Assembly: GCF_000213805.1 (NCBI RefSeq)
Contig: NC_015556.1
Coordinates: forward strand, 3,549,001 to 3,613,000
DNA length: 64,000 nt
Direction: 5' to 3'
Source of the DNA: Pseudomonas fulva 12-X
Lineage (GTDB): Bacteria; Pseudomonadota; Gammaproteobacteria; Pseudomonadales; Pseudomonadaceae
Below are positions 57,960 to 58,105 of the stretch, in pieces. Positions within the stretch are counted from its first letter, which is position 1. The number at the start of each line of letters is the position of its first letter. Both the position numbers and the translations under genes were made by a program. The notes beneath the pieces are model-generated. The model worked only from the letters and a program-made list of their open reading frames with translations. It did no database searches and was not told where the DNA came from.

Positions 57960-57976
57960 ATGTATCCGCAGACATC

Positions 57977-58017
57977 GAGCCTGTCGGCACACGGCAGGCT
58001 CCCCGAAACGAATCGGG
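57977..58017 (+). promoter_or_regulatory. Tandem leader hairpins, ANTAR-target-like
   Basis: P1 pairs GAGCCTG (57977-57983) with CAGGCTC (57995-58001), extending inward. P2 pairs CCCGA with TCGGG around the hexaloop AACGAA (58007-58012), which has A at position 1 and G at position 4, the ANTAR signature. The P1 loop is not a clean hexaloop. Tandem hairpins before a terminator are the NasR/NasT antitermination design. Confidence 0.65.
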
Positions 58018-58024
58018 ACCGGAC

Positions 58025-58064
58025 AAAGGCGTCCTTGCACTCACGGTGCAGGACGCCTTTTTTT
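58025..58064 (+). terminator. Leader terminator of nas operon
   Basis: AAAGGCGTCC (58025-58034) pairs with GGACGCCTTT (58051-58060), with an inner TGCAC/GTGCA stem, then a T run to 58064. It lies only 41 bp before the nasB-like start codon, so it must be read through for expression. This is an attenuator, not an operon end. Confidence 0.88.
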
Positions 58065-58105
58065 CGGCCCCACGTTGGCCCGGGTCAGCTCAACGGAGGT
58101 CGCGG

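Follow-up and report, generated by a model that had tools for sequence, protein, structure and literature searches.

Antitermination in Pseudomonas aeruginosa was reportedly described by Romeo in 2012, and we take the product of PA1785, the regulator there, to be NasT. In Klebsiella, nasR presumably lies upstream of its operon. The P11 leader, or NalA, of P. aeruginosa and antitermination in the operon that matches the one studied here (nirBD-PA1779-cobA) are already known (PMC3973561). The leader of P. fulva 12-X shares with it the sigma54-type promoter, the P1 and P2 hairpins and the GGACAAAGGCGUCC block of the RF00625 consensus, and both have a terminator with nitrate/nitrite assimilation genes behind it (PMC3973561, PMC12080996), but 12-X lacks the P1 hexaloop and has NasR, not the PA1785 product, as its probable regulator. 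The NasR-controlled nasF leader of Klebsiella oxytoca resembles 12-X in its one-component NIT-ANTAR sensor, its A1/G4 hexaloops and a second hairpin that overlaps the terminator (PMC3369931, PMC7496416), whereas in 12-X nasR follows the operon genes and the leader has three hairpins, the first without the loop motif and the second (P2) closed by an A-U pair. Binding of NasR to the P1P2 RNA of K. oxytoca is in the range of 1 uM (PMC7496416). The eut leaders of Enterococcus faecalis, read by EutV, likewise combine a recruitment hairpin with an antitermination hairpin embedded in the terminator (PMC8934654), but they use a phosphorylated response regulator, two hairpins and different genes. The reported features of ANTAR targets include an A at loop position 1 and a G at position 4 (PMC3369931, PMC7496416), and structural work that proposes a single hexaloop as the minimal motif has reopened the question of loop number (PMC8934654).

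We analysed a 64,000-nucleotide window of the 12-X genome, in which the leader upstream of the nas operon is a real member of the P11 family: it scores 90.6 bits against Rfam RF00625 (gathering threshold 70), with model positions 1-139 complete. The leader lies between a penicillin-amidase-family gene and a nasB-nasA-cobA-nasR row, all on the plus strand (Table 1). Its putative promoter motif, which follows the -24/-12 consensus of sigma54-type promoters, falls inside the RF00625 match and recurs in the RF00625 consensus, and a transcript start is therefore predicted near 57969; because the scans for leaders in relatives demanded this element, finding it there is no independent evidence. The nasB-like product matches TIGR02374 at positions 1-401, below the cut-off, and the nasA-like product matches models of NasA, NasC and formate dehydrogenase, all below their cut-offs. 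The nasR gene, which the window truncates, is complete in sequence L003 (160-1500). The upstream acylase gene (55254-57785) is weakly PvdQ-like (66.7 bits, cut-off 950). A weak P11 match on the minus strand (58028-58122, 15.5 bits) probably stems from the palindromic terminator.

Table 1. Features of the nas leader of P. fulva 12-X and of its surroundings, in window positions unless stated otherwise.
Feature	Position	Strand	Basis
Putative sigma54-type promoter motif (-24/-12), TGGCAC-N5-CTGCT = TGGCACACTCCCTGCT	57943..57958	+	sequence
P1 hairpin, 10-bp stem, pentaloop GCACA (57987-57991)	57977..58001	+	minimum free energy fold
P2 hairpin CCCGA[AACGAA]UCGGG, 5-bp stem, A1/G4 loop 58007-58012	58002..58017	+	minimum free energy fold
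P3 hairpin GGAC[AAAGGC]GUCC, 4 bp, A1/G4 hexaloop, C:G closure	58021..58034	+	nascent fold, conservation, stem variants
Intrinsic terminator, stem 58025-58060, U run to 58064	58025..58064	+	folding
nasB-like FAD/NAD(P) oxidoreductase (NirB N-terminal-like), first gene after leader	58106..59371	+	Pyr_redox_2, Rubredoxin_C
nasA-like nitrate reductase catalytic subunit with BFD-like [2Fe-2S] domain	59371..62112	+	Molybdopterin, Fer2_BFD
cobA, uroporphyrinogen-III C-methyltransferase	62288..63040	+	TIGR01469, PRK06136, above cut-off
nasR, NIT+ANTAR nitrate sensor; start GTG 63159 or ATG 63192	63159..64000, cut by window end	+	NIT, ANTAR
Second leader (sigma54, P3, terminator) before nrtA-like gene, beyond nasR	L003 about 1990-2117; genome about 3613989-3614116		

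At -52.5 kcal/mol (z -6.69), a value that none of 200 shuffles reached, the minimum free energy structure of 57969-58060 contains P1, P2 and a strong terminator, which by itself folds with -25.3 kcal/mol (z -7.05) and whose U run ends 41 nt before the ATG of the nasB-like gene. The original prediction had proposed folding the leader and had described two hairpins, a P2 loop of AACGAA, a terminator at just this distance from the ATG and a P1 loop that departs from the A1/G4 hexaloop. All of this is borne out; the P1 loop is a pentaloop, the P1 region carries deletions relative to the RF00625 consensus, and the A1/G4 hexaloop is absent from P1 of 12-X at the place where that consensus has AACGAU, a loop not required for the cut-off. 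As a parts list, however, two hairpins and a terminator proved incomplete, since a third hairpin, P3, had been overlooked.

P3 shares its loop and 3' strand (58025-58034) with the terminator, whose stem begins with these ten bases, and the two structures are therefore mutually exclusive. In the nascent RNA (57969-58034), the fold with P1, P2 and P3 makes up 81% of the ensemble. Taken alone, P3 is weak (-5.4 kcal/mol, with 17 of 200 shuffles as stable), and for the whole leader the terminator fold reaches -52.8 kcal/mol versus -40.0 kcal/mol when P3 is forced, so that P3 would need help to persist. P2 and P3 stand 3 nt apart and both carry A1/G4 hexaloops, the two-hairpin arrangement of ANTAR targets, in which the second hairpin shares bases with an intrinsic terminator and cannot coexist with it, as is the case for P3; its A1, its G4 and its C:G closing pair are all reported ANTAR-target features. 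P2 is thus a probable recruitment hairpin and P3 a probable antitermination hairpin. P3 is unmarked in the structure line of RF00625, and our search turned up no earlier account of a third P11 hairpin; most of the subscription literature lay outside that search, and one may be in print. As far as that search reaches, the candidate role of P3 as the competing hairpin of P11 and the three-loop array appear to be new, as do the apparent loss of the P1 loop with the absence of NasT and the NasR pairing in the P. straminea group.

On this basis we are fairly confident that 12-X has a P11-family leader whose predicted terminator shares its 5' arm with P3, and that nitrate-bound NasR likely grips P2 and then P3, blocking the terminator. 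NtrC and sigma54 would start transcription of the leader under nitrogen limitation, and nitrate would free the ANTAR domain of NasR. P2 would recruit the protein, P3 would then be held while the polymerase passes the U run, and P1 would be a structural or leftover stem with a loop no longer needed after the loss of NasT.

Across 152 distinct leaders no stretch is as strongly conserved as the 14 bases of P3, at 1.7-2.0 bits per position. Its 5' strand GGAC, which is outside the terminator stem, carries 1.9-2.0 bits per position, compared with 0.3-0.8 for the four bases before it. The parser that read these leaders was anchored on P3-like sequence and so favours P3 conservation; it left just two of 231 loci unparsed (L175, L265), and both contain GGACAAAGGCGTCC. 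P3's own 5' strand, the arm it shares with the terminator and the terminator's 3' arm usually read GGAC/GUCC/GGAC. They change in step in two P11-like variants, to AGGC/GCCU/AGGC in L184 and, read by eye, to AGAC/GUCU/AGAC in L289. A second, narK-RNA-like class of leaders has CGAC/GUCG/CGGC or CAGC at 36 of 209 distinct sites, 34 of the 36 with the loop AAAGAC; the scan for these sites demanded three pairs, which leaves the fourth as the sole free test, and it is kept in all 36. Several rare classes with unrelated stems in the same scan look like chance matches or P1 hairpins. Two points here count against our reading of P3: the outermost pair is broken at one second-type site each in L015, L020, L069 and L076, and P3 is invariant in the 55 aligned leaders, so that the alignment speaks neither for nor against it and the pairing rests on few variants.

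The 55 leaders of that alignment all have three hairpins, and a list of 98 mutually diverse leaders (170 distinct) supplied almost all of them. Covariation of the P1 and P2 stems, the absence of which would have counted against the original prediction, is found for P1, where 10 of 12 pairs show a change in each partner, and can hardly be judged for P2, the stem of which is almost invariant and says little on pairing. For the whole structure of P1, P2 and P3, drawn from one row, none of 500 shuffles reached four of the measures and 12 reached the fifth, the count of pairs changed on both sides, and all five exceeded slid controls; kinship among sequences can beat such shuffles without structure, which makes this support, not proof. 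The P1 loop is C[AAHGNN]G in most relatives, and many related leaders have three A1/G4 hexaloops, in P1, P2 and P3. The closest relatives of 12-X are P. straminea, P. argentinensis and P. punonensis (L005-L007), with nasB 96, 93 and 92% identical to that of 12-X. The P1 stem is kept throughout this group, with the loops GCACA in 12-X and GCCAT, GCAGA and GCAAA in L005, L006 and L007, and P2 and P3 keep A1 and G4 in all four. P2 is lost in several Stutzerimonas leaders and in the g6 leaders L168-L177. As a side observation, the P2 hexaloop is gone (an AATA tetraloop, or no hairpin) with P1 and P3 kept in L009, L010, L013 and L017 (Stutzerimonas), in L012 and in the g15 loci L208-L210 and L213-L215.

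NasR of 12-X combines a NIT domain (PF08376) with a C-terminal ANTAR domain (PF03861; genome 3613281-3613439), the NIT-ANTAR architecture, and aligns with K. oxytoca NasR (4akk) at E 1e-52, with an aligned stretch in each domain. It is the only 12-X protein that matches both NIT and ANTAR. Two proteins of the genome match ANTAR at E 0.001: NasR, encoded co-directionally downstream of the operon, and an AmiR-like protein. No NasT-type ANTAR protein was found among them. An amidase-like, an AmiC-like and an AmiR-like gene, named from their translations, stand in a row at L004 2403-5657. The genomes of L005-L007 have one ANTAR match each, NasR. Elsewhere, 51 of 80 named loci hold an ANTAR-type frame: three are NasR (L005-L007) and 48, open frames of 196-475 amino acids, match NasR and AmiR weakly and were taken as NasT. 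Many genomes of the family (G043, G080, G163 and others) encode NasR alongside some other ANTAR protein.

RF00625 matched in 146 of 198 family genomes, the best match per genome being taken and some weaker second matches left out. Non-NasR ANTAR matches were taken as NasT as a class, and some may be AmiR. In genomes with such a protein, a C[AAHGNN]G loop lies upstream of P3 at all 143 loci read, 139 of them by script (of 141 parsed) and four otherwise: L089 and L222, which the script cut short and which are canonical on reading, and L175 and L265, which show AACGGC. The script counts were 107/109 loci without NasR and 32/32 with NasR as well, from 136 genomes (with G015 and G147 entered twice and with two leaders from each of three genomes). 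The corresponding figure for genomes with NasR and no NasT is 1 of 8 loci, and three of the seven losses are soft, as an A1/G4 hexamer that lacks the C:G closure persists in G105, G161 and G125 (the last two read by eye). The sole exception, G159, keeps all three loops with NasR only, which weighs against the NasR-P2-P3 reading. In the named set 70 of 80 leaders passed; the misses were L005-L007, L070 (its leader is identical to that of G190) and six others, in which a C.A mismatch lies beneath a C[AACGAT]G loop that is itself intact. A NasB tree of 33 rows, G159 not among them, requires four changes for the NasT-less state, two of them forced by well-supported branches: in the straminea group, whose nasB branch is long; in G046 with G161, G105 and G125; in G190; and in G039 (placement unsure). 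These patterns suggest that, in the loci read, P1 and P3 are kept in every genome with a NasT-type protein and that the P1 loop is usually gone where NasR occurs without NasT. The parallel losses may stem from weaker constraint once the sensor had changed, or may have arrived with transferred gene clusters.

In other gammaproteobacterial families, four leaders directly behind NasR (L290, L293, L295, L296) keep a canonical first loop and P3; their RF00625 scores are below gathering, and nine of 11 class-level matches were parsed. NasR therefore probably reads the ordinary motif, which in the 12-X leader would be P2 and P3. The first loops of these four leaders, AAYGGC (that of L296 read by eye, its stem under the 3-bp test), led us to reject the notion that NasR itself drives P1 loss as a general rule, and to this extent they count against our account. 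We also rejected the notion that NasR always means two loops, as the g6 leaders without P2 occur both with NasR (e.g., G005) and without it (G067, G120).

The leader does look like an ANTAR-type nitrate attenuator, as first proposed, but P1 and P2, the pair put forward then, are unlikely to be the working one: neither overlaps the terminator, and it is P3 that competes with it, so that the canonical pair in 12-X is P2 and P3. The odd P1 loop, from which altered binding rules had been surmised, is for this reason better read as the loss of one of three loops. It is improbable, in our view, that NasR reads the P1 pentaloop under altered loop rules and binds P1 together with P2: the preservation of the P1 stem in all four straminea-group leaders speaks for it, but binding both hairpins alone would not exclude the terminator, P3 is canonical and near invariant, and all four P1 loops lack A1/G4. 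The same stem could do a job independent of any ANTAR protein, for example by stabilising at its 5' end the attenuated P11 RNA or an sRNA with targets of its own, and this rather unlikely alternative would be compatible with NasR acting on P2 and P3. It draws on the compensatory changes that preserve P1 stems in relatives and on the description of P. aeruginosa P11 as an sRNA that affects C. elegans behaviour (PMC12080996), but where relatives have a non-NasR ANTAR protein their P1 loop stays within the ANTAR consensus, suggesting that its chief task in them is contact with protein.

The two remaining explanations seem to us very improbable. Control by the AmiR-like protein instead of NasR would use the sole other ANTAR match in the genome, but its gene sits behind the amidase-like and AmiC-like genes, and L005-L007 have the leader with NasR as the single ANTAR match. 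The strength of the terminator would suit one that is constitutive, with a leader that yields only short RNA, but the operon behind is co-directional and the P3 variants match both terminator arms. Against the preferred reading, binding of NasR to P2 and P3, there is also the A-U closure of P2, as C:G was favoured in NasR SELEX experiments (PMC7496416).

More tentatively, and with somewhat less than even confidence, we suggest that P11 could be a three-hexaloop ANTAR switch with a movable recruitment role. Leaders read by NasT would hold P1 and often drop P2; after repeated takeover from NasT by NasR the P1 loop would have decayed, with P2 or a weak site recruiting, and valency would track the sensor. 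Independently of this suggestion, our reading of P3 would assign P11, studied as an sRNA, to the ANTAR class and give it a defined hairpin that competes with the terminator, and the natural series of three, two and one canonical loops, with NasT or NasR, can be used to test the number and order of loops that an ANTAR protein needs.

The pattern NGACAAHGRCGTCN has six matches in the genome versus 14 for its reversed control, and this lack of enrichment of the P3-type pattern by itself is a further point against our reading of the nas leader. Only two of the six matches have a sigma54-like element before and a U run after, those in the nas leader and in the leader of the nrtA-like gene. The nrtA leader has a P3 loop of AACGGC and no A1/G4 loop upstream on a stem of at least 3 bp, likewise in L005-L007; having P3 as its only such loop, it sits uneasily with a two-hairpin reading, and it may be a single-hexaloop target. 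The narK RNA (RF03032) shares with the 12-X leader a sigma54-like start, CGACAAAGACGUCG and the same P3-type hairpin, and looks like an ANTAR leader. It differs in the gene behind it and has no pairs in its Rfam structure line, and the 12-X leader scores 22.1 bits against it, below its gathering threshold of 43.2. Sites of the narK-RNA type occur in L032, L033, L040 and others.
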